This document shows positions 6,856-21,749 of a stretch of DNA of 22,428 nucleotides, piece by piece. The notes under the pieces are model-generated. The model saw only the letters and a list, made by a program, of their open reading frames with translations, was not told the origin of the DNA and made no database searches. The stretch's first letter is position 1. Each line of letters begins with the position of its first letter. The translations under genes and the position numbers were made by a program. Source of the DNA: Gammaproteobacteria bacterium (lineage in GTDB: Bacteria > Pseudomonadota > Gammaproteobacteria > Pseudomonadales > Azotimanducaceae); contig NZNP01000063.1 of the NCBI GenBank assembly GCA_002694945.1, positions 1 through 22,428 on the forward strand, written 5' to 3'.

Positions 6856-8418
6856 ATGGTTGAAACCCAAACTGGACACGATCGATCTGATGGTATTTCT
6901 TACGATGACATTCTAAGGAATGATACGGTCCCGCCACCAGCTGTCTACTTGGAAAATTCGCCGCTTGCTCCTGGAGTGACTCGAGTGCCTGTAGAGAAAT
7001 ATTTCTCAAGGGAACAGCATGAATTAGAAGTTGAACGTTTATGGAAGCGAGTTTGGCAAATGGCTTGTCACGAGTCCGATATAGCGAATGTGGGCGATAC
7101 GTATGTATACGATATCGCGGAGCTCTCCTTCATTGTAGTAAGGGTATCCGAAAACGAAGTCAAAGCGTTTCCCAATGCTTGTCTTCACCGCGGGAGAACG
7201 CTTTGCGATAGCCATCGACGTGAACTGAAAGTATTTCGCTGCCCATTTCATGGTTGGTCTTGGAATCTAGACGGTTCGTTAAAAGAGATCCCAGGCCATT
7301 GGGACTTTCCCTCTGTTAAAGCAGAAGAGTATGGGTTGCCGGAAATTAGGGTAGGACATTGGGGAGGGTTCGTCTTCATTAATCCGGATTCTGAATGTGA
7401 GCCCCTCGAAAACTTTTTAGGTGATATTGATCGTCACTTTGGTATTCCCTTTGAACGACGTTTCAAAGCTGCGCACTTGATCAAAGTTTTACCGTGTAAC
7501 TGGAAGGTTGCCCAGGAGGCGTTTATGGAGTCCTACCATGTAGTGGCCACCCATCCAGAACTACTCGGTTACTTTAGCGATGTTAATTCGAAATACGATG
7601 TGTTTGGAAATTTATCGCGCGCGATCTCCGCTTCTGGGCCGCCTAGTCCTCACACGGGTTTAGTTAATCCGGACATGTCTTCTTATCCGGACAAGAAAGC
7701 TTTCACGAGCCTAAGGCACATGATCAGCGGACATGTTTACAGGCGGCTCGGAGAAAATCGCGTTGAGGTAACTTTACAGGATGGACGTACAGGAATTTTT
7801 GATCAGTATGCTGAATATATCGACGGTGAGGTTAAGTCTGCGGACATTCAGATGTGCTCATGGGTTGGTGGTGCCATTTGCGAGGGAGAGGAAGATACTC
7901 CGATGGAATACTCAACGGAGTCGCCTCACGCTTATCGAGACGAAGTGGCTTCAGCACGTCGCGAGGCATTGCGACCTCAGTTTGGAGAAGGCGTCGAAAA
8001 AATTTCTGATGCTGATTTAGTTGACGCGATTTATTATTCTGTCTTCCCTAATATCAGTCCCTGGGGTGACTTTAATCCAATCTTTTATCGGTTCCGCCCT
8101 AATGGGTCGAATCCAGAAGAAAGTCTGCATGAAGTCATGTACATGGTGCCGCTACCAGAGGGTGTCCCAATGCCGGAGGCTGCGAACTGCACCTACTTGG
8201 GTGTCGATGATGACTATTGTGACGCGCCGGAAATAGGGAGTTCTCTAGCTAAAATCTTCAACCAGGATTTCGTTAATCATCGTCAGGTGCAGAAAGGTCT
8301 GCATTCTCATCCCAAGGGTCATACGATTTTTGCTAGTTACCAGGAGACTAAGATCCGTCATTTTCATCAGACGCTCGATAAATGGCTGTCAAGTGATAAG
8401 GCGCCGCTGTCGGAATAG
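6856..8418 (+). CDS. Rieske non-heme iron oxygenase, alpha subunit (Rieske oxygenase 1)
   Basis: A 520-aa ring-hydroxylating oxygenase large subunit. The Rieske [2Fe-2S] ligands are C109-L-H111 and C129-P-F-H132. The catalytic domain contains NWKVAQEAFMESYH, placing mononuclear-iron ligands at H228 and H233, with D471 (in FNQDFVNH) as the probable carboxylate ligand. It is about 70 residues longer than the paralogue at 20391. The extra length lies between residues 265 and 383 and includes a segment, about 294-338, ending GEVKSADIQMCSWV. No beta subunit is nearby, so an alpha-only oligomer is likely. It probably adds one or two oxygens to a cyclic substrate using electrons from a ferredoxin. 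The ribosome site before ATG at 6856 is weak. Confidence 0.93.
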   Translation: MVETQTGHDRSDGISYDDILRNDTVPPPAVYLENSPLAPGVTRVPVEKYFSREQHELEVERLWKRVWQMACHESDIANVGDTYVYDIAELSFIVVRVSENEVKAFPNACLHRGRTLCDSHRRELKVFRCPFHGWSWNLDGSLKEIPGHWDFPSVKAEEYGLPEIRVGHWGGFVFINPDSECEPLENFLGDIDRHFGIPFERRFKAAHLIKVLPCNWKVAQEAFMESYHVVATHPELLGYFSDVNSKYDVFGNLSRAISASGPPSPHTGLVNPDMSSYPDKKAFTSLRHMISGHVYRRLGENRVEVTLQDGRTGIFDQYAEYIDGEVKSADIQMCSWVGGAICEGEEDTPMEYSTESPHAYRDEVASARREALRPQFGEGVEKISDADLVDAIYYSVFPNISPWGDFNPIFYRFRPNGSNPEESLHEVMYMVPLPEGVPMPEAANCTYLGVDDDYCDAPEIGSSLAKIFNQDFVNHRQVQKGLHSHPKGHTIFASYQETKIRHFHQTLDKWLSSDKAPLSE

Positions 8419-8482
8419 ATATCGAGGAACGTATCTGCATGATAAAGGCGCTAAAGTTGGACCGAGCTCCCGATATTTGCCA

Positions 8483-8505
8483 TAACAAGACTTTACTCCT
8501 TGTTA
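8483..8505. promoter_or_regulatory. Inverted repeat TAACAAG-N9-CTTGTTA upstream of the globin gene
   Basis: Perfect 7-bp arms at 8483-8489 and 8499-8505 with a 9-base centre lie in the 160-base gap between Rieske 1 and the globin. It is AT-rich with no T-tract, so an operator is more likely than a terminator. The gap suggests the globin operon has its own promoter. Confidence 0.35.
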
Positions 8506-8578
8506 ACTAAATCGAGTTTATCGAAGAAGCATATATGTGTCGTCTACAATGCTTTTGATGCAAGATCTAAGGATCATT

Positions 8579-8986
8579 ATGTCTTCTAAGGATGATGTTA
8601 TTGCCGAGAGCCTTTCGTTAGTAGCCGAACGAGCCGGTGATGTTACGTCCGTTATTTACGAAAAATATTTTATGCGATGCCCAAGTGCTGAAGAGGTCAT
8701 GTCGCACCTTGACGCTCAGGTTTTGGGTAAGATGATGGAAGAGGTTTATCGGTTGCTGATGGTGAATGACTATGAGTCTGAAAATGATTACCTTAACTGG
8801 GAAGTTAGTAACCATGAAACGGCTTACAATGTTGAACCGCATATGTACGAAGGGTTTTTTAGCGCGGTTATCGATTCAGTCCGCGAAGTAATGGGCAGCC
8901 AATGGACGCCTGCGCTAGAGCGTGTTTGGGAGTCCAAGTGCGAAGAGTTACGATCTGAGATAGCACGGAGGTTTAGCGTCGATTGA
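8579..8986 (+). CDS. Single-domain globin-like protein
   Basis: A 135-aa all-helical protein. The pattern 'IYEKYFMRCPSAEEV' (26-40) resembles the B/C helices, and 'NHETAYNVEPHMYEGFFSAV' (78-97) resembles the F/G segment of bacterial globins, with H79 the best candidate for proximal heme ligand. 'GSQWTPALERVWESKCEEL' fits the H helix. The spacing from H79 to the conserved Val/Pro is one residue longer than in flavohemoglobin, so heme binding is likely but not certain. ATG at 8579 has AAGGA 5 bases upstream. A GTG at 8537 would add 14 residues without support. The stop overlaps the next gene's TTG start (TTGA). Possible roles are oxygen delivery or NO/oxygen sensing for the oxygenases. Confidence 0.72.
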   Translation: MSSKDDVIAESLSLVAERAGDVTSVIYEKYFMRCPSAEEVMSHLDAQVLGKMMEEVYRLLMVNDYESENDYLNWEVSNHETAYNVEPHMYEGFFSAVIDSVREVMGSQWTPALERVWESKCEELRSEIARRFSVD

Positions 8987-10698
8987 ATAAATTAAGCAGC
9001 GATTCTTTTGCCCTTACAGAGCCTGCGCGCGGTAAAGCCGGTCAGAAGGCGCATCCTGACCTAATAGAGCATTCCTCAAGATTAGAAAAGTGTTTCTATA
9101 GCTGCGGTCCTGACGCTTGGTGCTATGTTGGCAATGGCTTGTCTAATCAGACTTTCATTCGTGGCCCTGGGGGTATCATCGCGATTGATACAGGCGAAAG
9201 CATAGAGGAAATGCGAGCTGCGCTTGCTGCTTTAAGGGAAGTAACTGATCTGCCGATCGTAGCCTGCATCTATAGTCACTTTCACTATGTCAACGGCACC
9301 AAGGCGCTATTGGATGAAAGAGACGTCGAGTCGCTACCCATATATGGTCACGCAGGTATTCCGGCTAATCTGGCACGCTTTGGCGGCGAGGTGGGACCTA
9401 GGTCTAGTCGAGGACTTGTTCAGCAATTCGCCATTTTTTTGCCGGAAGAGGGTGAAGATGGACAGGTGAATGTCGGTTTGGGACGCTTTTACCGGAATCC
9501 TGAACATTCGCCGTTCTCTCCCGGCTACATTGCACCAAATATTACTTTTACAGAACCATTTTCAGATCAGATCGCGGGATTGGCCGTAGAAATGACCCCT
9601 GCGCCCAGCGACGCAACCGACTCTATAACAATCTGGTTTCCAGAATTGGGAGTCTGCGTAAACAACCTTGTTTGGCCTGCGCTCTTCAATATTTTTGCAA
9701 TTCGTGGCGAAGAGTTTCGTGATCCGCGCATTCTTCTAGAGGGGCTCGACCACCTTGCATCTTTGCCAGCAGTTCAATTAATAGCAGCGCACGGCCCTCC
9801 TTTGGAAGGCAGGAAAGAAATAGCTGGGGTTATCGAAGACTACGCGGATTCAATTCGCTACATTTGGGATCAGACCGTCCGCGGAATAAATAAAGGCTTG
9901 ACGCTTGATGAGCTTGCTGTCGATCTAAGCTTACCTGAGAGATTCGAGCGAACTTACTTTACACGGCAATTTTACGGTGTTGTGGAACACCATGTACGTC
10001 AGATACACGCGGGGCTCTTTGGTTGGTTCGATGACGATCCCTCTAAGCTATTTCCTCAGGTTCCTTTGGAGAGGGCACAGAAGCTGGTCAAAGGTTTCGG
10101 TGGAGTCGAACAGGTTCGCCAAGCTTTTGAAGAGGCGATTCAGTCAGAAGACTATCGATGGGCGATTGAGTTGTCCGATTGGCTGGTCAAAGTTAATGAT
10201 GACTCGAGTGATAAACATCGCCTAGCCACTGCGCTAAGAGCTGTTGGTCAGCGAACAACCTCAGCGAATATTCGAAATTGGTGCGTAACGAGAGCAATGG
10301 AGCTAGATGGCTTAATTGATCTCACGCGTTTCCGCCAACATCGCTTCGGTTACTCTGAAGTTATGGCAGGAGAACCCGCAGCTTTCGTTAAGCTTCTACG
10401 CGTACTGCTGGACCCAGACAAAGCTAAAGGTTTGCAAGGCGATTTGTGCTTTAAATTTGATGATGGTAGCAGCGCTGGCTTAACACTTCGCAATCAGGTC
10501 GCGGTTCCTACGGATGGCTCAAATTCAAGTATTAATATTGAGTTGGGTCATGAGTCCTGGGCCAGGTTATTGTCCGGTAAAATCTCACCTGAGGCGGCTG
10601 CGCTAAGCGGTGAGCTTAACGTGGTTAGGGGTTCGTTGGATGAGTTTTTAATGATCATGGGGGTCTTTGATCTTTGGCATGTCGATACTAAAAAATAA
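8983..10698 (+). CDS. Alkylsulfatase-like MBL-fold protein with altered metal ligands
   Basis: A 571-aa protein in three parts: a metallo-beta-lactamase domain (about 45-280), an alkylsulfatase dimerisation domain (about 285-430) and an SCP2-like lipid-binding domain (about 455-571). This is the SdsA1 order. The first zinc motif, HxHxDH in SdsA1, reads H99-F-H101-Y-V-N104, so the Asp and third His are replaced. The later Glu ligands also appear lost in 'SDATDSITIWFP' and 'CVNNLVWPALFN', whereas 'IAAHGPPLEG' keeps H270. It therefore probably does not act as a classical two-zinc sulfatase, though one metal or another hydrolysis is possible. It has no signal peptide, unlike secreted SdsA1. The start is TTG at 8983, 11 bases after GGAGG and overlapping the globin stop. 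Confidence 0.87.
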   Translation: MNKLSSDSFALTEPARGKAGQKAHPDLIEHSSRLEKCFYSCGPDAWCYVGNGLSNQTFIRGPGGIIAIDTGESIEEMRAALAALREVTDLPIVACIYSHFHYVNGTKALLDERDVESLPIYGHAGIPANLARFGGEVGPRSSRGLVQQFAIFLPEEGEDGQVNVGLGRFYRNPEHSPFSPGYIAPNITFTEPFSDQIAGLAVEMTPAPSDATDSITIWFPELGVCVNNLVWPALFNIFAIRGEEFRDPRILLEGLDHLASLPAVQLIAAHGPPLEGRKEIAGVIEDYADSIRYIWDQTVRGINKGLTLDELAVDLSLPERFERTYFTRQFYGVVEHHVRQIHAGLFGWFDDDPSKLFPQVPLERAQKLVKGFGGVEQVRQAFEEAIQSEDYRWAIELSDWLVKVNDDSSDKHRLATALRAVGQRTTSANIRNWCVTRAMELDGLIDLTRFRQHRFGYSEVMAGEPAAFVKLLRVLLDPDKAKGLQGDLCFKFDDGSSAGLTLRNQVAVPTDGSNSSINIELGHESWARLLSGKISPEAAALSGELNVVRGSLDEFLMIMGVFDLWHVDTKK

Positions 10699-11551
10699 AG
10701 TAGCCGTAGTTACCGGAGCGGCCGTCGGGTTAGGTAGAGCATACGCCGAAGCTTTGGCAGAGGCGGGTGTAAATCTCGCCGTTTGCGACGTAAGAGACGA
10801 AGTGATGGAGTTGCCTGAATTACTAGCCGATGACGGTGTGAAGGTTTTGACCAGTCAAGGCGATGTATCGGACCCGAAGCATGTTAAAAGTGTTGTTGAT
10901 GGTGCGTGTGAATATTTGGGTGGTATTGATATCTTGATCAACAATGCTGGAGTTTGGGGAGCAAGCACAGCAGATGATGATCTCGACAAATCTATAGCAG
11001 ACTATGAGTCGATCGTTGGTACTAATCTTAAGGGCGAATATCTTTTTGGTCGGGCGGTGATACCTATCATGCTGGCGCAGGCTCGGGGTGGCGACATAGT
11101 TAACATTGCGACGGATCATATGGTGACCTGCGGAACCCCGGATCATGTTTGTCCTGACCTTGAAAGCTGTCCTTGGGGTGAATCGCCCAGACCCACGGGA
11201 GGTGGCGACGCAATGGACCTTTACGATGCTGCGAAATGGGGGTTGAACGGATTACTATACGCCTGGGCTAAATCACTTGCACCCCATGGCATTAGGGTAA
11301 ACGCATTTTGTATGGGGGCCACCGATTCTTGGATGTTGCGTTCTTTTCACGGTCATAACCCTCCTCAGGAGGAGGTGGATAGCTGGATGCGTGCTGAAGA
11401 CAACGCTCGCGTTTTAATTGAACTCCTGGAAGAGGGGCCTTCCGGGAGGAATGCTCAAAACATCAATTTTTGCATTGGCCGACCGGTTGCCCTCGAAGCG
11501 CCAAACGATCACCGATATGTGCGTGCTGAACAAGTAAAGGTTATATCGTGA
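10679..11551 (+). CDS. SDR-family NAD-dependent dehydrogenase with insertion before the active-site Tyr
   Basis: A 290-aa classical SDR. The cofactor loop is TGAAVGLG (12-19), NNAG is at 88-91, and YDAAK at 182-186 gives the catalytic Tyr and Lys. D37 at the end of strand 2 points to NAD(H). The usual Ser is replaced by Thr (T145 in VNIATDH), which can serve the same role. Between it and Tyr lies a Cys/Pro/Gly-rich stretch of roughly 36 residues, about 24 longer than usual, probably an extra loop over the substrate. ATG at 10679 overlaps the previous gene by 20 bases; a TTG at 10667 is a less likely start. It probably oxidises an alcohol or dihydrodiol made by the oxygenases. Confidence 0.9.
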   Translation: MSILKNKVAVVTGAAVGLGRAYAEALAEAGVNLAVCDVRDEVMELPELLADDGVKVLTSQGDVSDPKHVKSVVDGACEYLGGIDILINNAGVWGASTADDDLDKSIADYESIVGTNLKGEYLFGRAVIPIMLAQARGGDIVNIATDHMVTCGTPDHVCPDLESCPWGESPRPTGGGDAMDLYDAAKWGLNGLLYAWAKSLAPHGIRVNAFCMGATDSWMLRSFHGHNPPQEEVDSWMRAEDNARVLIELLEEGPSGRNAQNINFCIGRPVALEAPNDHRYVRAEQVKVIS

Positions 11552-12321
11552 CCTCGATTAACCCAAAAGCGTCCACTCGCGTTGCCATCGTTAGTGGCGC
11601 AGCTCAAGGGCTGGGCCGAGCTTTTTCGTTGCGTCTAATGGAAGCTAACTACTGTGTAGTCGCTTTCGATATTGATGAGTCTGTTATGGATTTGCCAGTG
11701 ACGGCGAAGCTGATTGCGGATCAGTCGCAACGACTGGATGTCCAGGCCGTAGTAAAAACTGCATCTCAGCTAGGGCAGATAGGTGTCCTAGTAAACAATG
11801 CGGGCAAATGGAAATCGACGCCAGTAACAAGTGATTGGCAAACCTCGCTTGACGATTGGGATGAGATTATGGGGACAAATCTCCTAGGCGTGATGTTGTT
11901 GTCCAGGGCAGCGATTCCCCACATGAAGCTTTGTGGGGGACATATCATAAATATTTCGTCTTATTATGTATTGCCGGCTAAGAGTGATGGTACAAACCCG
12001 CCTGACACAGACCTATATAGTGCGTCGAAGTGGGCTTTGAATGGCTTTACAGACGCATGGGCAAAAAGGCTCGAAGCTTTCGGTATTACTGTTAATGGTC
12101 TTTGCATGGGAGCGGTAGATACACCAATGTTGCGAAATCTATTCCCGAGCGGAGATCTACCAGTCGATCTTCTGGAGAAAGTATTGCAACCTAAGGCTAT
12201 TGCCGACCAGATGATGGACTTGATGCTTAGCGGCCGAACAGGTGAAAACATTGGTGCATTCGTCGGTGAGCCTGTAACGATTGGTGAACAACCGCCATTG
12301 CACAAGCGGATAACAGGTTAG
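11548..12321 (+). CDS. SDR-family NAD-dependent dehydrogenase
   Basis: A 257-aa SDR paralogous to the one just upstream. It has SGAAQGLG (16-23), D41 favouring NAD, NNAG (83-86), INISS with the catalytic Ser near 137-138, and YSASK (157-161). Its Ser-to-Tyr loop is also lengthened (about 19 residues) but less than in its neighbour. The shared 'KWxLNGxxxAWAK', 'GIxVN' and 'CMGAxD' segments show a duplication origin. It starts with GTG overlapping the previous stop as GTGA, which indicates translational coupling. The two may form a hetero-oligomer or act on successive alcohols or epimers of one intermediate. Confidence 0.91.
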   Translation: MTSINPKASTRVAIVSGAAQGLGRAFSLRLMEANYCVVAFDIDESVMDLPVTAKLIADQSQRLDVQAVVKTASQLGQIGVLVNNAGKWKSTPVTSDWQTSLDDWDEIMGTNLLGVMLLSRAAIPHMKLCGGHIINISSYYVLPAKSDGTNPPDTDLYSASKWALNGFTDAWAKRLEAFGITVNGLCMGAVDTPMLRNLFPSGDLPVDLLEKVLQPKAIADQMMDLMLSGRTGENIGAFVGEPVTIGEQPPLHKRITG

Positions 12322-12324
12322 CTT

Positions 12325-13494
12325 GTGAGCTGGAGCCCTTTTTCTTCTGAAACCCTAGAGAACCCGGCAAGTGGAGTAAGACATCTGCTTCAGCAATGTC
12401 CCGTGCATTACTGTGACGAATTCAATCCAGCTTTCTACACCTTGTCACGATACGAGGATGTTGCTAACGCATTACGAGATGTTGACACGTTCTCTAGTCA
12501 GTTCGGCCAAGGGCCACGTTTCACAGAACCGGCAGGTATGCTTTGTGATCCGCCCCAGCATACTTTTTTTCGAAAATTGCTGCAGGGTTGGTTTACTCCT
12601 GTTGCGGTCAAAGGCCTGCGAAAGCCGGTTATCAATCTAACTCACCACCTGATAGACAGTATTTTGGAAGGTGATGGGAATTTCGATGCGCACGACGATC
12701 TTGCATTTCCATTGCCGGTGACGATTATCGCTCAGTTGCTGGGTGTGCCAGATGATGATCTGGAGCAGTTTAAATATTGGTCGGACATTCAAGTGGCTGC
12801 CATGGGCGCAGCTGACCCAGCCGTGTTTATCGACGATCAGCAAGCCTTTCAATCGTATATGCTCAATCACTTCCGAGGTAAACGTGCTCTTATTCAGGAC
12901 GGCGGTGATCAGACTGAAGATTTACTAGCGGTTATAGCTGGTGCCCGTGACGAGTCTGGTAACTACGCGTCAGAGGTTGATGCATTGTCCGTGCTCAATC
13001 AGCTTCTTGTAGGTGGCAATGAAACGACGACATCGCTTATCACCAATCTTTTATGGCGATTACTGGAACAACCTGCCCGTTGGGAGATGTTAAAAAAAGA
13101 ACCGACGTTGATACCGCAGGCAGTTGAGGAAAGTTTGCGGTACGACCCACCGGTGCTCGGTCTCTATCGTAGTACGACGCGAGAGGTTAAGCTGCATGGT
13201 CAGATAATACCAGCCGGTAGCAAAGTTTATATCCATTATGCCGCGGCGAATCGTGACCCCAGCGTTTTCAAGGAACCGGACCTATTTGATTTGACACGAC
13301 CATCGGCACGCCACATGTCTTTCGGCCTTGGCTTACATTTTTGTTTGGGGGCAACCACAGCTAGACTGGAAGCTGAGGTCGCACTGCGGCTCTTACTCGA
13401 AAAACTGCCCAACCTGAGGCTAGTTCATAACGGAGAGAGAATCGGACCATTTTTTCTCTGGGGAAGAAAAACATTGCCACTTGCGTGGCGCTAA
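12325..13494 (+). CDS. Cytochrome P450 (P450 A)
   Basis: A 389-aa soluble bacterial P450. The I-helix oxygen-activation motif is GGNETTT (230-236), with Asn-Glu in place of the more usual variable residue-Asp/Glu. The ExxR motif is E269-S-L-R272. The heme loop FGLGLHFCLG (333-342) provides the thiolate at C340. 'AAANRDP' (306-312) precedes the meander as usual. Length and motif order are complete. It is a class I type that needs ferredoxin and reductase. It begins with GTG at 12325, three bases after the SDR stop, so it belongs to the same transcript. The probable role is regiospecific hydroxylation of a hydrophobic substrate whose product is handled by the SDRs. Confidence 0.95.
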   Translation: MSWSPFSSETLENPASGVRHLLQQCPVHYCDEFNPAFYTLSRYEDVANALRDVDTFSSQFGQGPRFTEPAGMLCDPPQHTFFRKLLQGWFTPVAVKGLRKPVINLTHHLIDSILEGDGNFDAHDDLAFPLPVTIIAQLLGVPDDDLEQFKYWSDIQVAAMGAADPAVFIDDQQAFQSYMLNHFRGKRALIQDGGDQTEDLLAVIAGARDESGNYASEVDALSVLNQLLVGGNETTTSLITNLLWRLLEQPARWEMLKKEPTLIPQAVEESLRYDPPVLGLYRSTTREVKLHGQIIPAGSKVYIHYAAANRDPSVFKEPDLFDLTRPSARHMSFGLGLHFCLGATTARLEAEVALRLLLEKLPNLRLVHNGERIGPFFLWGRKTLPLAWR

Positions 13495-13503
13495 GGAGAA
13501 CAT

Positions 13504-14331
13504 ATGTCAGTCAATTTACTCATCGTAAGCAAGGGACATGCCTTTTCCCATGATTCTTTTTTAACGATGTTTGCGGAAATGAGTGATGTAGTTACGACGT
13601 TGGTGGAGCAACCTGCTGCTCAGGTAATTCTTCAACCAGAGAACGTCGCTCCTTATGATGCAGTACTCTTTTATGACATGTCAGGTATACCTGATGCAGG
13701 ATTGGTGCATGATGGCGCGAACAATACCGGACAACCGCCATCTGTCTACGTTGATGCGATCGAGAAGCTTCTTGATGCAGGTAAAGGGTTGGTCCTACTT
13801 AACCATGCGACTTTCAGCTGGCCGCTCTGGCCGTTATGGCGAGAAATAACGCAAAGTTCAGCTATGCTTCGAGCAGGCGAACTCGATGGTAAGCAAGTGC
13901 CGGGTTCAGGCTACAGAGGCGGACATGGTCCTCTTCCCAATGCCTCGGTAAAATTAATCTCTCAGGGTGATCATCCTGTTTTGGCGGGCCTGGAGACAGG
14001 TTTTGAGATTGCGGACGAGCTTTATCTAAAAACACCTCATTTTGAATCTGCTGTTACCCCACTTTTGCGAGCTGATTATGATTTTTCAACAGCCAATTTT
14101 ACCCCACCTCCTCTAGCTCCTGAGGAAGAACAGCAAAACTGGCAGCATCCTCAAGGTAGCGATCTGATAGCCTGGGCCCACTCTTGTAGGCGTTCCCCTG
14201 TTGTAGTAACGGACCTGGGTGATGGTCCCTCGGCGTTTGAGAACCCAGATTTCTCAAGGTTTATCGAGAATGCCGTGACATGGGTGTCGTCAGAGCACGC
14301 GCAACGCTGGGTTGAATCGAAAGCCGGCTGA
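13504..14331 (+). CDS. ThuA-like (glutamine-amidotransferase-fold) protein
   Basis: A 275-aa protein with a ThuA/class I amidotransferase-like alpha/beta fold. It opens 'VNLLIVSKGHAFSHDSF', followed by 'YDAVLFYDM' (strand), 'LLDAGKGLVLLNHATFSWPLW' (residues about 88-108), 'YRGGHGP' and 'GDHPVLAGLETGFEIADELYL'. The 'GxGxVxLxHA' and 'DHPxxxGL-x-F-x-x-DELY' segments are ThuA hallmarks, while the amidotransferase Cys is absent, as in that family. ThuA proteins are found with sugar and sterol-like catabolic genes and their biochemistry is poorly known. An AGGAGA lies 5 bases before ATG at 13504, and the gene follows P450 A by 9 bases. I infer a role in the same pathway but not a reaction. Confidence 0.78.
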   Translation: MSVNLLIVSKGHAFSHDSFLTMFAEMSDVVTTLVEQPAAQVILQPENVAPYDAVLFYDMSGIPDAGLVHDGANNTGQPPSVYVDAIEKLLDAGKGLVLLNHATFSWPLWPLWREITQSSAMLRAGELDGKQVPGSGYRGGHGPLPNASVKLISQGDHPVLAGLETGFEIADELYLKTPHFESAVTPLLRADYDFSTANFTPPPLAPEEEQQNWQHPQGSDLIAWAHSCRRSPVVVTDLGDGPSAFENPDFSRFIENAVTWVSSEHAQRWVESKAG

Positions 14332-14399
14332 CCGTAAAAAGTAATATATTCGTTTACCAAAAAACATTAGTCCAAATAAAAGAAGATAAGGAAGACAAA

Positions 14400-15089
14400 A
14401 TGGCAACAGTCATGATAGTGGGTGCAACCCGTGGCATAGGTCTCGAATTGGTTCGTCAGTATGCAGTGCAGGGAGACAATGTTATTGCCTGCGCGAGGGA
14501 TACCAGCGCGGCTTCTCTATTAGAGGAACTTGCTTCGAGTCATAGTAATGTAACTATCGAACAGCTTGATGTAGCGCAGTCCGAGTCGGTTAATGCAGCG
14601 GCAGAACGGATCGGTGATGTGGCAATAGATACCGTGATTGTAGTCGCTGGCGTCGTTGGTGGAATGCGTCAGTCTATTGATGATCTCGATCTAGAGGCAT
14701 GGCATGAGGCTTTCAGCGCTAATACCATTGGTCCGATTATGGTTGCGCGAGCCTTTAAACCTAATCTCGTGGCTTCAGGTGCAGGTAATCTAATGATTCT
14801 CTCCAGCCAATTGGGCGCATCTACTTGGCCCTTTGGTGGGATGTATATCTACTCAACCACCAAGGCGGCTGTTGGTAAAGCGGCCAAGATCCTCTCCATT
14901 GATTGGAAGGAAGACCCTATTATTGTTTCAGTGATGCATCCAGGATACGTCCAGACTGATATGGGTGGCCCTAATGCAGAAATCACCCCTGAGGAAAGTG
15001 CCTCAGGCATAAGAAGTGTAATTGGTAATCTATCTGCGGAAGATTCGGGTAACTTTTATAAATGGAACGGAGATATTCACCCTTGGTAA
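14400..15089 (+). CDS. C-factor-like short-chain dehydrogenase
   Basis: A 229-aa SDR of the C-factor (CsgA-like) subgroup. It has VGATRGIG (7-14), R33 after strand 2 suggesting NADP(H), SSQ with catalytic Ser near 135-136, and YSTTK (151-155). The C-terminal 'GYVQTDMGGPNAEITPEES' and 'GNFYKWNGDIHPW' segments are characteristic of this branch. The NNAG motif reads VVAG. AAGGA precedes ATG at 14400. A 68-base gap separates it from the ThuA-like gene, so it may have its own promoter or be the last gene of the operon. It ends directly against the convergent P450-like gene, with no room for a terminator. The likely role is carbonyl/alcohol interconversion in the pathway. Confidence 0.9.
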   Translation: MATVMIVGATRGIGLELVRQYAVQGDNVIACARDTSAASLLEELASSHSNVTIEQLDVAQSESVNAAAERIGDVAIDTVIVVAGVVGGMRQSIDDLDLEAWHEAFSANTIGPIMVARAFKPNLVASGAGNLMILSSQLGASTWPFGGMYIYSTTKAAVGKAAKILSIDWKEDPIIVSVMHPGYVQTDMGGPNAEITPEESASGIRSVIGNLSAEDSGNFYKWNGDIHPW

Positions 15090-16400
15090 TCAGGCGAGGG
15101 TAACGGGTAACCGCCAACAACTGTGCATTTCGCCTGCGGATAGTGCGCCCATAGTTGGGCTCGTGTTTGCGGTTAGCTTGATCAGGTCTACTTCATCAAT
15201 GATCGCCAATGACGCCGAAACTGCTGCATCTCTGATAATCGCGTAACGTGAACGAGGTCTGTCTTCAGGGACCGCGGGATGTTTTGAAGGTTTGCCGAGT
15301 CCCCAGGCGATGCCGCTGGCCAGCCCATCGGCTCGATAATGGCCTCTTGGTTCCCGCTGACACAGGTCTTTTCGGTCGATAATAAAACAGTCAGGTTCCT
15401 TGAATACCCTAGGATCGCGGTTGGCAGCGGCAGCTGAACAAAGAAGTCTAGCTCCTTGGGGTAGAAGCCGTCCAAACCTCTCGACTTCATGTCTCGTAAA
15501 TCTCGCTGCTGTAAGCACTGGTGTCGAATGCCGCAAAGTTTCAAGCCAGGCGAGTTTCATCAATCTGGTATCGTTACTGACCTCGTTAAGTCGTTCTGGC
15601 TGACTGAGTAGGAGGTACCAGAGATTAGCAAGTCCTCCGTGTAAGGTTTCATGATCTCCTTCTAGGAGGGTTAATGTCACATCACGGGCAGTTAAATCGT
15701 TTCCTTTAATCTTTAGCATGGCTGAAATTAGGTCGTCGGCAGGGTCTGACAGACGTTGAGCGATGAGTTCATTAAAAAAAGTATCTAACTCAGCAATCGC
15801 TCGTTTTCCTTCTTTCCTTAGTTGCGGCAACCAAGATGTGCCGCGTTGCATGCGCCAATAAGCTTCCGTGAACCACTCCATGTTCTCATAGGGTAGCGCT
15901 AGTTGCGCTTTGAGCAATTCAAGGGGTAACTGAGCTGCGAAGTCTGTAACGAGGTCAGGTCGTTCGGATAAAGCCATATTGCCGATCAGTTTCTGGCTGA
16001 TCGTTCTTGTTTGTTCATCAAAAACGCGTTCCTCAATCTCGACAAGGGCTTGTTCATCTCTCAGATTGGTGTCGGATTCCGCGACACCGTACGCCGATGC
16101 CTTGCTGCGAGTTTCAAAATTAGCCTCGTCAGCGAGAATCGAGGTGACATCATCATATTGGGTAATCCAGTAGCTATTGGACAACCAGTCTCGATAGCAG
16201 GGATAGTTCTCTCTCAGTATTTCAAGTAAGGGGTAGGGGTTGGCTTGATAACTATCTGAAATTAATTGCCTTGGTTTGATTTTTTCAGTGCTCTCGCCGA
16301 CACGTTCTCGCTGGTAAACCTCGTAGGTTCGGTAAGCGGCAGTCGTTTCGGAGTTTCGGTCAATCCTTACGCCATTTTTGCCGATTGCTCCACTCGTCAC
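15090..16400 (-). CDS. Cytochrome P450 homologue lacking the heme-ligand cysteine
   Basis: A 436-aa P450-fold protein, last gene of the reverse operon. ExxR is intact (E287-T-L-R290), and 'AAAANRDPRVFKEPDCF' (323-339) is a normal pre-meander, but the heme loop reads WGLGKPSKHP (366-375). The position of the thiolate Cys is K373, and the loop His and final Gly are also lost. The I-helix shows GDHET (248-252) instead of GGxET-T. The reading frame is open throughout, and neither other reverse frame encodes a heme loop there, so this is not a simple frameshift. The N-terminal half is similar to the adjacent P450 B (NPYP-YxxLR pattern, SYWIT/CYWVT, YDDVT/YEDIT). GTG at 16400 overlaps the P450 B stop (GTGA). 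Probably a non-catalytic partner or a substrate-binding protein. Confidence 0.85.
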   Translation of the reverse strand: MTSGAIGKNGVRIDRNSETTAAYRTYEVYQRERVGESTEKIKPRQLISDSYQANPYPLLEILRENYPCYRDWLSNSYWITQYDDVTSILADEANFETRSKASAYGVAESDTNLRDEQALVEIEERVFDEQTRTISQKLIGNMALSERPDLVTDFAAQLPLELLKAQLALPYENMEWFTEAYWRMQRGTSWLPQLRKEGKRAIAELDTFFNELIAQRLSDPADDLISAMLKIKGNDLTARDVTLTLLEGDHETLHGGLANLWYLLLSQPERLNEVSNDTRLMKLAWLETLRHSTPVLTAARFTRHEVERFGRLLPQGARLLCSAAAANRDPRVFKEPDCFIIDRKDLCQREPRGHYRADGLASGIAWGLGKPSKHPAVPEDRPRSRYAIIRDAAVSASLAIIDEVDLIKLTANTSPTMGALSAGEMHSCWRLPVTLA

Positions 16401-17812
16401 GAGATATCAAACTCCAGCCAGAGTTCCCTCACGGAAGTAATTCCCATGGGCGCTGGTTTATTGCCATCGATATCCCGTGGCATTAGATCTTCTTTAATTT
16501 TAGGGTTCTGCATTTTTTTTAACAAAATCTCCGAGCCGACAATTGCCTCCTGATGCGAAATCCACGCGCCAGGGCATAGGTGAGGGCCTACGCCAAAAGC
16601 CATATGGCTGCATCTGCCTTCTTTTCTATAGCCACTGCGCAGTAATTTACCGCTGTAAAGGTCTTGTCGAAAGATGTCGAAACGTTCAGGGTCATCGAAT
16701 ATTCGCTCGTCGTGATTAGCTGAAAAATCGACCATTTGTATGAGTGATCCTGCTGGTATCTTTACACCATGCATTTCGACATCGAATGTATTGTGGCGTG
16801 GTTGGCCTCCTATAGAAGAAGAATGCCGCAGAGTTTCATGAAAAACGTTGTCCCAGAGACTATTGTCTTTCTGAACAGCTAAAAACTGATCGGGGTGACG
16901 CAATAGCAATGTCCACATATTGAGTATCGCTCCCCGAGTCGTTTCGCCGCCGCCTCCTACGATCAAAGCAATATTAGACGTTACCTCCTCTGTGGAGAGT
17001 ACAGCTCCGTCAACTTTTGTTTCGCACAGTTTACTAATTATGTCTTTCCCTATCGGATTGCCAGCGCTGTCGTAGAGATAGGTAGGTGAGTGACGGCGCT
17101 CTTCGACAATGCCCTGGATGTAGTCTTCTAAATCCTGTCTGGCTTCAACGCCCACCCGATGTGTCTCAGATCCGCCAAGACCACTCATCATTGAGTTGTA
17201 CCAGTAATAGAATTGAGGTTGAGCTTCTTTAGGAAAACCTAGCACCTCGCAGACAACGCGAATGGGAAATTCATTGGCGAAAGCTCTACCAAGTTCAACG
17301 AGACGTTTGCTTTCGGTGTCATTAACGTAGGGTTCATCGCCTAATGCGAGGCGACTCCAGTCTTCAATCATCTCCTCAGCCAGACGCTCAATGGCTGGTA
17401 TTCTAAGCAGTAGCGATTTGCCAACCAGGTGCTGACCATAGAGATTTCGTCTTCGCCTATGCTCTACGCCTGATAATTCAAGTTGTGTATTGCCTAACAC
17501 CCCGCTCGAAGATCCTTTGGGTATTGTATTAAAGCCCTCATCATCGAAGTAGCAGTCGGTGATATCTTCGTACCGAGTTACCCAGTAGCAATTGTGAAGC
17601 CTATCGTGGAATACCGGATAGTGGTCTCTTAATATTCGATAATAGGGGTAGGGATTTCGAAAAAATTCAGCTGAATCCAATATTCTAGGGTCAAACAATG
17701 GTTTGCCATCAACATCTGCCCCCATATCGAAGGCCTGCCCCTCGGGCATGAAAGGAAATTTTTCAGCTCCTTCTTTACTTTCTGCGAGCTGTTTAAAAAA
17801 ATCTGTGTTCAT
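16397..17812 (-). CDS. Cytochrome P450 (P450 B)
   Basis: A 471-aa P450 with complete motifs: I-helix GGGGETT (286-292), ExxR E326-T-L-R329, and heme loop FGVGPHLCPG (406-415) with thiolate C413. It is longer than P450 A because of an extended N-terminus (about 45 residues before FFRNPYPYY). ATG at 17812 is chosen because it overlaps the stop of the NTF2-like gene (ATGA) and has GAGAG just upstream; a TTG at 17848 would overlap that gene further. It forms an operon with the NTF2-like gene upstream and the Cys-less homologue downstream, each joined by a 4-base overlap, implying equal production and perhaps a complex. Its redox partner is probably the ferredoxin encoded divergently at 18333. Confidence 0.93.
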   Translation of the reverse strand: MNTDFFKQLAESKEGAEKFPFMPEGQAFDMGADVDGKPLFDPRILDSAEFFRNPYPYYRILRDHYPVFHDRLHNCYWVTRYEDITDCYFDDEGFNTIPKGSSSGVLGNTQLELSGVEHRRRRNLYGQHLVGKSLLLRIPAIERLAEEMIEDWSRLALGDEPYVNDTESKRLVELGRAFANEFPIRVVCEVLGFPKEAQPQFYYWYNSMMSGLGGSETHRVGVEARQDLEDYIQGIVEERRHSPTYLYDSAGNPIGKDIISKLCETKVDGAVLSTEEVTSNIALIVGGGGETTRGAILNMWTLLLRHPDQFLAVQKDNSLWDNVFHETLRHSSSIGGQPRHNTFDVEMHGVKIPAGSLIQMVDFSANHDERIFDDPERFDIFRQDLYSGKLLRSGYRKEGRCSHMAFGVGPHLCPGAWISHQEAIVGSEILLKKMQNPKIKEDLMPRDIDGNKPAPMGITSVRELWLEFDIS

Positions 17813-18258
17813 ATCTCTCGAAGACCGTAAAACTCTCGTTGTGGCCAAAGGAAGTCAATACGTGTTCGGTGGATCCTCCACTTCCCAAACACCTTTTTGT
17901 AGATATCATCGTAGATACCGTAAAGGATAAGGGGGTTGTCGGCACCTTCACTAGTTCTGAGGTCATGCAGATACCAACGCCCATTAGCTGTAGTACTGTC
18001 GACTAGCCTTATCCAGGGGTTTGTTACAGAGTGCATCACCTCATAGGCAGGGCTGTCACCGCCTAGAAATCGGGAAAAATTTTCATGAATGGTTTCCTTG
18101 CCAACCCAGTCACCTCCGTAATTAGGACCAAATTCACAGATCGCATCATCAGTAAATAGGTCAACCAAGTCTTCAATCATCTTCCCATCAAAATAGTGGC
18201 TGTACATTATCCTTAGTTCTTTGATGCTTTCTTTTTCGAGAAATTCTTCCAGTGTCAT
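17809..18258 (-). CDS. NTF2/SnoaL-like protein
   Basis: A 149-aa cone-shaped-fold protein. It begins 'LEEFLEKESIKELRIMYSHYFDGKMIEDLVDLF', the two N-terminal helices of SnoaL-like proteins, followed by 'DDAICEFGPNYGGDWVGKETIHENF', 'MHSVTNPWIRL', 'ANGRWYLHDL' and 'KWRIHRTRIDFLW', the curved-sheet strands. Family members include polyketide cyclases, dehydratases, isomerases (such as ketosteroid isomerase) and hydroxylating-dioxygenase beta subunits. Catalytic residues cannot be assigned with confidence, although the first helix pair carries Tyr and Asp residues at about positions 19-24. ATG at 18258 has GGGGCC upstream. It is first in the P450 B operon, with a 4-base overlap. It may act on the P450 product or stabilise the P450 pair. 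Confidence 0.83.
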   Translation of the reverse strand: MTLEEFLEKESIKELRIMYSHYFDGKMIEDLVDLFTDDAICEFGPNYGGDWVGKETIHENFSRFLGGDSPAYEVMHSVTNPWIRLVDSTTANGRWYLHDLRTSEGADNPLILYGIYDDIYKKVFGKWRIHRTRIDFLWPQREFYGLREI

Positions 18259-18332: not shown

Positions 18333-18632
18333 GTGACCTATGTGATAGCAAGTGCCTGCATTGACGTGATGGACCAATCCTGTATTGAAGTCTGCCCGGT
18401 CGACTGCATCTTTTTCGAAGATAAAGATCGTATGTGTTACATAGAGCCTGCTGCATGTACCGATTGCGGTGTCTGCGAACCAGCCTGTCCTGTTGGTGCT
18501 ATTTACCCTGATACGACCTTGCCTCGCGATGTCAGCAATTTTACCCAAATCAACGCGCTTTGGTTTAGTGATAAGGATGCTGCAAGAGAGGAGGTTGATG
18601 CAGCGATAGATGGCGATGCTAACATTACTTAG
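18333..18632 (+). CDS. 7Fe ferredoxin (3Fe-4S/4Fe-4S)
   Basis: A 99-aa ferredoxin of the Azotobacter FdI/mycobacterial 7Fe type. By analogy with that family, C9, C17 and C52 hold the 3Fe-4S cluster and C21, C42, C45 and C48 the 4Fe-4S cluster. The motifs are CIDVMDQSCIEVCPVDCI and CTDCGVCEPACPVGAI. C25 and C35 are extra cysteines. The C-terminal region (60-99) is short, helical and acidic, suiting docking to P450s. GTG at 18333 has GAGGG upstream and gives MTYVIASACIDVMD, matching the family start. It is encoded divergently from the P450 B operon and upstream of P450 C and Rieske 2, so it is the obvious electron donor. No ferredoxin reductase is present in the window. Confidence 0.94.
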   Translation: MTYVIASACIDVMDQSCIEVCPVDCIFFEDKDRMCYIEPAACTDCGVCEPACPVGAIYPDTTLPRDVSNFTQINALWFSDKDAAREEVDAAIDGDANIT

Positions 18633-18939: not shown

Positions 18940-20313
18940 ATGACGACCAAAAAAGAACCATACGTACCTGTAACGCCAGCCGTAACCAGTGATATTAATT
19001 TTCTTGATCATGGCTTGCAGAACTGCCCTTACCATGCATACCGGCTGCTGCGGGATGAAGAGCCCGTTTGGATTGATCCCATCACTGGTTTTTATGTGAT
19101 AACTCGTTTTGACGATCTGAGGGGCGTGTTGTTAGATCCCTCGAATTTTTCAAATGATATGCGTGCGGGGGGCAGTAGTCGTGAGCGTATCGATAACGAA
19201 CGTGCTGTGCGCATGATGCAACTTTATGAGGAGAAGGGTTGGGTTCCCGGAGCAACACTCGCCGGGAGAGATGACCCCAACCACAAGCAAATGCGGGCCA
19301 TGTTCAACGAGGCATTCAACCCGCGAAAAATAAACGGTTTAGATCCATTTGTCAGAGATACTGCTTATAAGCTCGTTGATACGTTCGTTGATAAGGGAAG
19401 TTGCGATTGGGTTAAGGAAATGGCGGTGCCGTTACCTCTGATAGTTATTGGTCAGCAAATGGGTGTGCCGGAAGAGGATATCTGGCAGATTAAGGCATGG
19501 ACGGACGCTTGGGTGCAGCGTTTAGGCATGATGCAGAGTGAGGAGGAAGAACGCTGGTCTGTGGAGATGGAAATCGAAGCGCAGCATTATTTTCAGCGGA
19601 TCTTTGAGCGATTGCGAAAACAACCTGACGATACGCTGCTATCTGACATGGTCAATCGTGTTATTCCCGAATGGGGCAGACCCTTAACTGACAACGAGCT
19701 GCACGCAGAGATGATGGCGGATACTTTTGTAGGGGGATCTGAGACAACTACTAATGCTATTGCTTACGGCGTTAAATTATTGATAGAAAACAGAGGAATT
19801 TGGTGGAAATTAAAATCTGATCCAGAAAAATATCTGCGAACCTTTTGCGAAGAAGTTGTGAGGCTCGAGTCGCCAGTTCAGGGACTTTTTCGAAGAGCCG
19901 CGAGAGATGTTGAAATCCATGGCATTACCATCCCTGAGGGGGCGATGGTGAATGTTCGTTTTGCAGCTGCCAATCGGGATGAGCGCGAATTCGATGATCC
20001 TGACCAGATAGACTTGGAACGCGCTAAGCCCGGCCGACATCTTGGCTTCGGTTCGGGTGTCCATCATTGCATTGGCGCGCCATTGGCAAGACGCGAACTT
20101 TACTGGGCTTTTCACGCGCTTGTTCATCGCATCGAAGATATGGAATTTACCTCAGGACAAAATAGTTTTGAGTGCGCGCGTAACTTCTCTCTTCGCGCCT
20201 TAACTGAGTTACATATAAACTTCGAGGTGATATCTGCTGATCAGCGTTTAGACCCATCTAAGATGACGAGCGCATCAAAGGCCACCGATATGCCTAATCC
20301 AAGTGAACTTTGA
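18940..20313 (+). CDS. Cytochrome P450 (P450 C)
   Basis: A 457-aa P450 with all motifs: I-helix VGGSETTT (264-271), ExxR E305-V-V-R308, and heme loop FGSGVHHCIG (370-379) with thiolate C377. The N-terminal 'NCPYHAYRLLRDEEPVW' and 'FYVITRFDDL' are standard for soluble class I enzymes. The segment 'RDDPNHKQMRAMFNEAFNPRK' (110-130) is the C-helix heme-propionate region. It is only distantly related to P450 A and B. The C-terminal tail beyond residue 430 is longer than usual and polar. ATG at 18940 has only AGG immediately before it. Rieske 2 follows after 77 bases. The expected reaction is hydroxylation of a hydrophobic substrate with electrons from the 7Fe ferredoxin. Confidence 0.95.
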   Translation: MTTKKEPYVPVTPAVTSDINFLDHGLQNCPYHAYRLLRDEEPVWIDPITGFYVITRFDDLRGVLLDPSNFSNDMRAGGSSRERIDNERAVRMMQLYEEKGWVPGATLAGRDDPNHKQMRAMFNEAFNPRKINGLDPFVRDTAYKLVDTFVDKGSCDWVKEMAVPLPLIVIGQQMGVPEEDIWQIKAWTDAWVQRLGMMQSEEEERWSVEMEIEAQHYFQRIFERLRKQPDDTLLSDMVNRVIPEWGRPLTDNELHAEMMADTFVGGSETTTNAIAYGVKLLIENRGIWWKLKSDPEKYLRTFCEEVVRLESPVQGLFRRAARDVEIHGITIPEGAMVNVRFAAANRDEREFDDPDQIDLERAKPGRHLGFGSGVHHCIGAPLARRELYWAFHALVHRIEDMEFTSGQNSFECARNFSLRALTELHINFEVISADQRLDPSKMTSASKATDMPNPSEL

Positions 20314-20356
20314 TTTCGATTAAGAAGGAATTGGTGTAGATTATAAGTATAAAACA

Positions 20357-20368
20357 GTCAGTACTGAC
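20357..20368. promoter_or_regulatory. Perfect 12-bp palindrome GTCAGTACTGAC before Rieske 2
   Basis: GTCAGTACTGAC is its own reverse complement and lies 22 bases before the Rieske 2 start codon, between an AT-rich TATAAGTATAAAA stretch (20342-20354) that could be a -10 region and the AGGAGG ribosome site. A repressor bound here would block transcription or early elongation. It is a likely operator, but the protein is unknown. Confidence 0.45.
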
Positions 20369-20390
20369 GGTATTTTAGGAGGCAATGTAA

Positions 20391-21749
20391 ATGGCCGAAA
20401 TGTTTAAAGAGCTCGATCCCGACACGATGGCCCGATCACCCGGGCTAACCTATCAAGACCTGCTGGATCAGGATACACATGAAGTTCCAGAGGTTCTCAG
20501 ACTGCAATCGCCAAAAGACCTTGGCACCGAAGATTTTCTGAAAGACCGGTATATTTCTGCGGACTATCATGACAAAGAAGTTGAAAAACTATGGATGAAA
20601 GTCTGGCAATTTGCCTGTCGAGAGGAAGAAATACCGGAAGTTGGTGATCACATCCGCTATGACATTGCCGGCAGATCTTTCTTAATCGTCCGCCAGTCCG
20701 TTGGAACTCTCAAATGCTATCCTAACGCATGTCTGCACCGCGGGCGCATGTTGAAAGAATTTGATGGCCGGGCATCGGAACTCCGCTGCGCTTTTCATGG
20801 CTTCGCTTGGGAACTGGACGGTTGTCTAAAAGATGTCCCGGCAAGGTGGGATTTTCCTCAGATTGAAGACGAAGAATTTTCGCTGCCTGAGATTCCTCTT
20901 GCTACTTGGGCTGGTTTTGTTTTTATTAATCCCGATCAGAACTGTGAGCCTTTTGAGCCCTTTATTAAAGATCTTGCGGATCAGTTCGAGCGCTGGGATT
21001 TGGGTTCGCTTTATATCCAGGCGCATATCGCAAGAGTCGTACCCTGCAACTGGAAAATTGCCCAAGAGGCCTTCTGCGAAGCCTATCACGTCAACGCAAC
21101 TCACCCTCAAATTCTTCCGAGTTTGGGCGACACTAATAGCCAAGTGGATGTTTGGGAAAACTGCGCGCGTGTTATCACTCCCGGTGGTACGCCTAGCCCG
21201 CTGCTTGAAGATGATCGAAGCGACGAAGATGTTCTCCGGGCTATGATGGACTTGCCACCAGAAGCTGAGTTACCTCCGATACCCGAAGGCATGAATGCAA
21301 GAGCCTACTTAGCGGCCATGAGCAGGGAAGGGCTGAGAGCAGAAGCTGGTGATAGGGTTGATCAATACTGCGATGCTGAGATTGTGGACAGTATAGACTA
21401 CACCCAATGGCCGAATTTTCATCCATGGGGTGCCTTCAACAAGATTGTTTATCGTTTTAGGCCCAACGGCAACGACCATCGCAGCGCCATCATGGAATGC
21501 TATCAGTTGATGCCTTTCCAAGGGGAAAGACCACCCGCCGCAAAAATTCACTGGATAGATGATGATGTGAAATGGTCCACAGTACTTGGTTTCTTGGGCC
21601 GAGTCTTCGACCAAGATGTGTTTAATATGCCTAAAGTTCAAATGGGGTTGGAATCAAGTTACAAATCCAGTGTTACATTGTCAGGTTACCAAGAAGCGAA
21701 GGTGCGGTGGTTGAATCACAAACTAACAGAATGGGTAGGTGAATCATGA
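20391..21749 (+). CDS. Rieske non-heme iron oxygenase, alpha subunit (Rieske oxygenase 2)
   Basis: A 452-aa paralogue of Rieske oxygenase 1. Rieske cluster ligands are C114-L-H116 and C133-A-F-H136. The catalytic iron site is given by NWKIAQEAFCEAYH, with H233 and H238, and D409 (in FDQDVFN). Similarity to Rieske 1 is strong on both sides of a gap: from 'PSP' (268-270) to 'DAEIVDSI' (328-335) there are only about 57 residues, against about 120 in Rieske 1. The following 78-aa gene resembles part of the missing piece. A strong AGGAGG stands 9 bases before ATG at 20391. No beta subunit is present. It ends in a 4-base ATGA overlap with the small gene, so the two are made together. Confidence 0.94.
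   Translation: MAEMFKELDPDTMARSPGLTYQDLLDQDTHEVPEVLRLQSPKDLGTEDFLKDRYISADYHDKEVEKLWMKVWQFACREEEIPEVGDHIRYDIAGRSFLIVRQSVGTLKCYPNACLHRGRMLKEFDGRASELRCAFHGFAWELDGCLKDVPARWDFPQIEDEEFSLPEIPLATWAGFVFINPDQNCEPFEPFIKDLADQFERWDLGSLYIQAHIARVVPCNWKIAQEAFCEAYHVNATHPQILPSLGDTNSQVDVWENCARVITPGGTPSPLLEDDRSDEDVLRAMMDLPPEAELPPIPEGMNARAYLAAMSREGLRAEAGDRVDQYCDAEIVDSIDYTQWPNFHPWGAFNKIVYRFRPNGNDHRSAIMECYQLMPFQGERPPAAKIHWIDDDVKWSTVLGFLGRVFDQDVFNMPKVQMGLESSYKSSVTLSGYQEAKVRWLNHKLTEWVGES

Follow-up and report, generated by a model that had tools for sequence, protein, structure and literature searches.

A Cys-less relative of cytochrome P450 encoded beside a catalytic-type P450: a candidate partner protein

The closest described systems to the one discussed in this article are the P450-derived glycosyltransferase activators EryCII and DesVIII (TIGR04515). 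EryCII is described as a cytochrome P450 (P450) homologue without the Cys and without the C and C' helices, and its report presents an extra N-terminal helix as the main surface for the client glycosyltransferase and proposes allosteric activation (PMC3391682). A second precedent is EutEFG of the euthailol cluster, a split P450 reported to be catalytically inactive and thought to be structural for another protein of the pathway, in a paper whose main text does not contain the word cysteine (PMC11574762). Here, I will discuss a protein encoded on contig NZNP01000063.1 (assembly GCA_002694945.1, an Azotimanducaceae gammaproteobacterium), a stretch of 22,428 nucleotides referred to below as the window (contig C58 of a 3.41 Mb assembly in 146 contigs, 86.6% complete). 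The protein, called CLP for Cys-less P450-fold protein, is encoded directly downstream of a catalytic-type P450, here P450 B, and my reading, held with modest confidence, is that CLP is a heme-free pseudo-P450 that would serve as a dedicated protein partner, binding and activating P450 B.

Like EryCII and DesVIII, as far as the consulted descriptions of these go, CLP lacks the heme Cys and the C-helix motif and carries an N-terminal extension ahead of the P450 core, and CypX (3NC3) is among the nearest solved folds of both CLP and EryCII; EryCII itself is absent from the 50 rows of nearest solved folds listed for CLP, which has no bearing on relatedness. Unlike those activators, CLP has a catalytic-type P450 and no glycosyltransferase as its constant neighbor, its loop signature is its own and includes an insertion of ~10 residues, and its loci come from Proteobacteria and Acidimicrobiia. 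EutEFG, in the account available, resembles the proposal made here in that an inactive P450 has a presumed structural role for another protein, but it is a single P450 split into three pieces, and what it assists is a protein other than a P450 (PMC11574762). Set against CYP134A1 (CypX) and other class I bacterial P450s, CLP is without the thiolate Cys and the C-helix basic motif, has Asp for the I-helix Gly and has lost the B'-C region. A full-text literature search, whose coverage did not extend to most subscription papers or bioRxiv preprints, found no description of a P450 paired with a Cys-less P450.

A P450 fold with a rebuilt heme loop

CLP has the full P450 fold and exceeds the gathering score of Pfam PF00067; its heme loop reads GIAWGLGKPSKHPAVPEDRPRSRYA. 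Homologues were collected from 56 database loci and from loci found by genome searches, which gave 92 CLP open reading frames (ORFs), reduced to 73 by dropping 19 identical to another over residues 61-400 (near-identical copies were kept). Matches with <380 aligned residues or <250 bits were excluded (L060, which has an N gap, partial genes at contig ends, and the fragments L120-L122), and contig ends truncate two of the 73, L043 and L056. By record title, the 56 loci comprise 26 from Gammaproteobacteria/Pseudomonadales or unspecified Proteobacteria, 11 from Alphaproteobacteria and 19 from Acidimicrobiia/Actinomycetota. The protein search with CLP scored 7999 candidates, of which 961 reached E 1e-20 or better; the top 120 of the 961 were examined, and the resulting 119-row alignment is without P0001 (the window's own record) and P0009 (a fragment). 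The heme-loop Cys is found in none of the 73 locus homologues (Gamma- and Alphaproteobacteria, Acidimicrobiia) and in none of the 119 aligned rows (database proteins plus the window CLP), so its absence is neither a local mutation nor an assembly error. A single row, P0113, has any Cys within residues 356-401, located in the helix after the loop, and in that helix 4 of the 73 locus homologues carry a Cys at position 392.

The loop is conserved as the signature GxYRADGLAxGIxFGLGKPSxHPAxPEDRPRSxYAxxRD, together with the insertion mentioned above. The first-pass annotation had placed Lys at the thiolate position, and while the Cys is indeed missing and Lys373 is present at the codon it named, profile alignment puts its neighbor there: when a 78-row CLP profile and a 41-row P450 B profile are aligned with HHalign, His374 comes to lie opposite Cys413 of P450 B, with PSKHPA lying over PHLCPG, and an L-INS-i alignment likewise sets these two residues opposite each other. 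Since the Lys373 column holds mostly K/I/R/V, Lys is no conserved feature of CLP, and it was rejected as a substitute ligand. The residue at the thiolate position is His in 55, Tyr in 13, Phe in 3 and Trp in 2 of the 73 locus homologues, and His in 101, Tyr in 14, Gln in 2 and Phe in 2 of the 119 rows. Within the Caulobacteraceae it is Tyr in three CLPs (L021, L024, L028) and Phe in a fourth (L026), an exchange that argues for packing over metal ligation at this site.

The other heme elements have fared unequally. The ExxR of helix K is kept (E287 and R290, each 73/73), and the I-helix reads LEGDHETLHG in CLP vs VGGGGETTRG in P450 B, its Gly replaced by Asp249 in 72/73; the first-pass annotation had recognized the retained ExxR and fold as well as the altered I-helix. 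The C-helix motif EH[RKG]RRR is present in 71/71 P450 B proteins and 0/73 CLPs (the window P450 B has EHRRRR, with the Cys loop MAFGVGPHLCPGAWIS), the His that precedes the Cys in the P450 B loop is lost, and the B'-C region, which lines P450 pockets, is deleted (a gap of ~22-30 residues). CLP thus has neither the axial Cys of FxxGxxxCxG, by which heme-thiolate P450s are recognized, nor the C-helix basic motif, nor an I-helix of the form (A/G)Gx(D/E)T, and I infer that it binds no heme.

Conservation is also high in a different part of the protein. Residues 23-43 have a mean modal frequency of 0.92 vs 0.70 elsewhere in CLP (73 homologues), and R24, E27, R31 and R33 of this N-terminal arm are invariant (73/73). 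In an AlphaFold2 (AF2) model of the lone CLP chain, built from 78 of the 119 alignment rows, the predicted local distance difference test score (pLDDT) is low up to about residue 40, with short helices at 27-31 and 34-38 that also have low pLDDT; an arm that is conserved yet uncertain in a lone-chain model would fit a segment that becomes ordered on a partner. Residues 321, 347, 426 and 428 of CLP (window 15117-15440, minus strand) are also largely fixed (C321 65/73, C347 73/73, H426 61/73, C428 71/73) and could form a metal or disulfide site, and H254 is conserved in 67/73.

Linkage with P450 B, selection and descent

Directly upstream of CLP, on the same strand, lies a P450 B ortholog in 72 of the 73 non-identical genes. 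Apart from the window's own (100%), the 71 upstream orthologs are about 66-80% identical to the window P450 B; the 72nd case, L070, is a partial P450 B where its contig ends, and for the sole CLP without an upstream P450 B (L056) the gene starts at contig base 4. The loop Cys is present in 71/71 P450 B proteins, 70 having the full pattern and L040 having X letters in it. These counts answer the check that the first-pass annotation had proposed, whether homologues have a full P450 as neighbor and retain the altered loop, in the affirmative. The spacing between the two genes has a median of +5 bp and a range of -22 to +258, with start codons picked by script, such that single values may be off; 20 of 71 pairs overlap, 12 of them by 4 bp, with the window included in both counts.

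The linkage also holds when P450 B is the starting point. In 97 genomes, the window's included, 24 matches to the P450 B clade (at least 66% identity) are listed, and CLP follows in 23/23 with room downstream, either complete or truncated where the contig stops (G034 and G041 are among the 23), the 24th (G001) being cut by a contig end. In a sister P450 clade, 57-61% identical to P450 B, CLP stands downstream in 0/3 with room (L115-L117), a fourth member, L118, being cut; these three sister P450s without an adjoining CLP offer a natural control for the partner role. No neighbor other than P450 B is constant across the 72 loci, and in the samples examined the two-way linkage is strict. Locus L014 has two P450 B-CLP pairs in tandem, their CLPs 56% and 51% identical to the window CLP (tblastn), from which the pair seems to duplicate as a unit. 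The protein search with CLP and a further one with the two window proteins joined gave two candidate natural fusions of P450 B with CLP, both of which look like frameshifted records and were set aside: P0136 departs from the homologous frame repeatedly, and in P0059, judged by eye, that frame is lost toward the end of the P450 B portion (P0059 remains one of the 119 aligned rows). The joined search also gave a relative of P450 B, P0132, in an Ilumatobacter coccineus record.

Purifying selection acts on CLP. A finite synonymous rate (dS) was obtained for 35 of 38 close pairs, and the ratio of nonsynonymous to synonymous rates (dN/dS) is 0.045-0.17 in 34 of these and 0.33 in one with a dS of 0.03; the pairs share members and are not independent. 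The dN/dS of P450 B is below that of CLP in 30 of 31 comparable pairs, 110 alignment columns are at >=97% among the 119 rows, and all 73 frames are open without an internal stop. The retained function that the first-pass annotation had argued for is thus borne out.

Its proposal of a simple duplication of a P450 B-like gene fared less well. In a 44-row tree, CLP forms a single clade (100/100), as does P450 B (97/94), which adjoins the sister P450s (100/100); CLP, P450 B, the sister P450s, the third P450 of some loci (see below) and two more relatives' P450s share one branch (100/98), within which CLP falls outside the rest with weak support (84/47). CLP is therefore probably an old paralogue, and the tree lends no support to an origin by recent duplication of P450 B. 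The CLP and P450 B subtrees agree in places, as for L019+L061 (100/99 and 100/97) and three Acidimicrobiia rows (99/98 and 100/100), and the two distance matrices correlate over 70 loci (r 0.66, with 0/999 permutations as high), a value that is only partly informative because shared ancestry alone would give part of it. A phylum-wide sample gave a match at E 1e-60 in 1/397 genomes, the window's own, vs 44/206 genomes (14/37 genera) in the window's family, which points to a pair confined largely to certain lineages; among 72,556 plasmid records there was no match at E 1e-30. In the source genome itself, the CLP search matched 25 places, counting CLP and P450 B.

Partner, enzyme or heme protein

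In the scheme I propose, P450 B and CLP would be made from one message by coupled translation, CLP would bind P450 B co-translationally to give a hetero-oligomer, and the contacts would be made mainly by the N-terminal arm with its many Arg residues (roughly 23-43) and by the remodeled face of the former heme loop. CLP may then stabilize P450 B or keep it active, much as EryCII and DesVIII assist their glycosyltransferase, while the oxygen chemistry would be carried out by P450 B, together with a ferredoxin, in a catabolic context (Rieske oxygenases, short-chain dehydrogenases/reductases (SDRs) and CoA transferases are nearby). A heterodimer half or allosteric partner seems to be the best reading of CLP, whose mode of action is probably that of a P450-derived activator, with a P450 as its client. 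Several observations weigh against this. Linkage and tree similarity would also be seen with a pair of enzymes that belong to the same pathway and move together; CLP retains ExxR, has His or Tyr at the thiolate position in 68/73 homologues, and carries R300 at what I take to be the place of the heme-propionate Arg (P450cam numbering). Nor can the low pLDDT of the CLP loop be counted as diagnostic, and it was rejected as evidence, because the control AF2 model of P450 B, with its intact Cys loop, is also <50 at residues 406-412 (and mostly <50 in its N-terminal 15 residues).

The first of these objections leads to an alternative that I consider unlikely but worth keeping in mind, namely that CLP is a ligand-binding protein or non-heme enzyme in its own right (a carrier, isomerase or lyase) acting on the substrate or product of P450 B without a lasting complex, its emptied heme pocket rebuilt with polar residues; the conserved E247, D249, H250, H254, C321, C347, C428 and H426 would suit such a site and genes of the same pathway also remain adjacent, but a plain pathway enzyme should sometimes part from P450 B, whereas here order and spacing are fixed while the surrounding genes vary, and a protein without the B'-C region lacks a lining of the usual P450 pocket. 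The kept ExxR and the prevalence of His and Tyr (115 of the 119 rows), both known heme ligands, together with the placement of His374 opposite Cys413, would instead speak for a protein that still holds heme through an axial His or Tyr, which would make it a b-type cytochrome with the P450 fold or a peroxidase-like subunit that passes electrons to P450 B or acts after it. This I regard as somewhat more doubtful, given the Phe or Trp in 5/73, the Tyr/Phe exchange in the Caulobacteraceae, and the loss of the C-helix motif, of the His before the Cys and of the I-helix Gly, and I would rate a shade lower again its more specific form, in which a Cys-free CLP with a His (sometimes Tyr) ligand makes a two-heme complex with P450 B that relays electrons or performs peroxidase-type chemistry.

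That CLP simply belongs to the DesVIII/EryCII family appears very improbable: the same losses of Cys and C helix and the conserved N-terminal extension, as those proteins are described in the sources consulted, would agree with it, but CLP scores 89.2 bits against TIGR04515 (cut-off 343), below the window's P450 A at 151.6, to which no such role is assigned, its constant neighbor is a P450, and no glycosyltransferase domain was found among the window proteins scanned, the downstream genes of other loci being outside that scan. Membership of the cyclodipeptide-associated P450s (TIGR04538) is likewise not indicated by the scores, 122.9 bits for CLP and 163.6 for P450 B at a cut-off of 500. Finally, a decaying paralogue or sequencing artefact is hardly credible and, as a general explanation, is refuted by the selection data given above, with the open frames and conserved columns also speaking against it; what favors it is one genome (G032), where only CLP fragments in two frames are found (L122 4161-4512), but for this sole broken copy P450 B is likewise absent, both from the stretch read and from the genome at E 1e-60, as expected if CLP is useless alone.

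Gene neighborhood and meaning

The order NTF2-like, P450 B, CLP with its ATGA and GTGA overlaps, as the first-pass annotation had it, is present in the sequence (Table 1). For P450 B, the mechanical ORF list gives a TTG start at 17848; the ATG is used here.

Table 1. Features of the window discussed in the text
Feature	Position	Strand	Remarks
SnoaL_4/NTF2-like gene	17809-18258	minus	first gene of the operon; accessory; Pfam SnoaL_4 79.7 bits vs gathering score 24
ATGA overlap NTF2-like/P450 B	17809-17812	minus	read in sequence
P450 B, catalytic-type P450 partner, 471 aa	16397-17812	minus	ATG start at 17812; Pfam p450 91.9 bits (TTG-started frame)
GTGA stop/start overlap P450 B/CLP	16397-16400	minus	read in sequence; translational coupling
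CLP, Cys-less P450-fold protein, 436 aa	15090-16400	minus	GTG start
CLP residues 23-43, conserved Arg-rich N-terminal arm (YRTYEVYQRERVGESTEKIKP)	16272-16334	minus	candidate partner-binding segment
CLP residues 343-391, reshaped former heme loop	15228-15374	minus	~10-aa insertion after loop
Lys373 codon of CLP	15282-15284	minus	neighbor of His374
His374 codon of CLP	15279-15281	minus	opposite thiolate Cys by profile alignment (HHalign, L-INS-i)
Divergent FdxA-like ferredoxin	18333-18632	plus	possible electron donor for local P450; Pfam Fer4; NCBIfam FdxA models below cut-off
P450 A	12325-13494		P450 of same window

Around the operon, besides the divergent ferredoxin, lies a dense oxidative cluster (window 6856-15089 and 18940-21749) with two Rieske oxygenases, an alkylsulfatase, a ThuA protein, SDRs, P450 A and P450 C, and because of these families I infer a catabolic neighborhood. 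The gene downstream of CLP is an SDR, and there is no third P450 beside CLP in the window. Across loci, neighbor counts are lower bounds because flank lengths differ (38 of 72 loci have at least 3 kb on both sides). An NTF2-like gene is near the pair in 7/72 loci, or 7/47 where at least 2.5 kb was read upstream, and the earlier idea of a constant third subunit was rejected on this count. A relative of the FdxA-like ferredoxin (at least 50% identity) is near 29/72 loci, a Rieske ferredoxin near 12/72 and a CoA transferase near 10/72. A Cys-bearing third P450 is near 24/72 loci (20/63 where at least 1.3 kb was read downstream), often directly downstream of CLP to give a three-P450 run (L010, L017, L042, L046 and others); its Cys is present in the five inspected, with HLGFGIGQHFCMGYAMA in L010. 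Acidimicrobiia loci (L031, L038, L047 and others) have a recurring set of beta-lactamase-fold hydrolase, CoA transferase III, SDR, Rieske ferredoxin and Rieske oxygenase.

The usual picture of a P450 is that of a one-subunit catalyst served by redox partners, and database annotation treats CLP as just another P450 (names among the best 120 of the 961 relatives include cytochrome P450 and pulcherriminic acid synthase). The gene pair suggests that some P450s consist of one live and one apparently non-catalytic subunit. If this is true, an obligate Cys-less partner across bacterial classes would make some P450s enzymes of two subunits, one of them a pseudoenzyme, expression of such a P450 by itself might give a protein that seems inactive or unstable, and the Cys-less P450 fold would have been reused as an activator for P450 clients too, beyond the known glycosyltransferase case.

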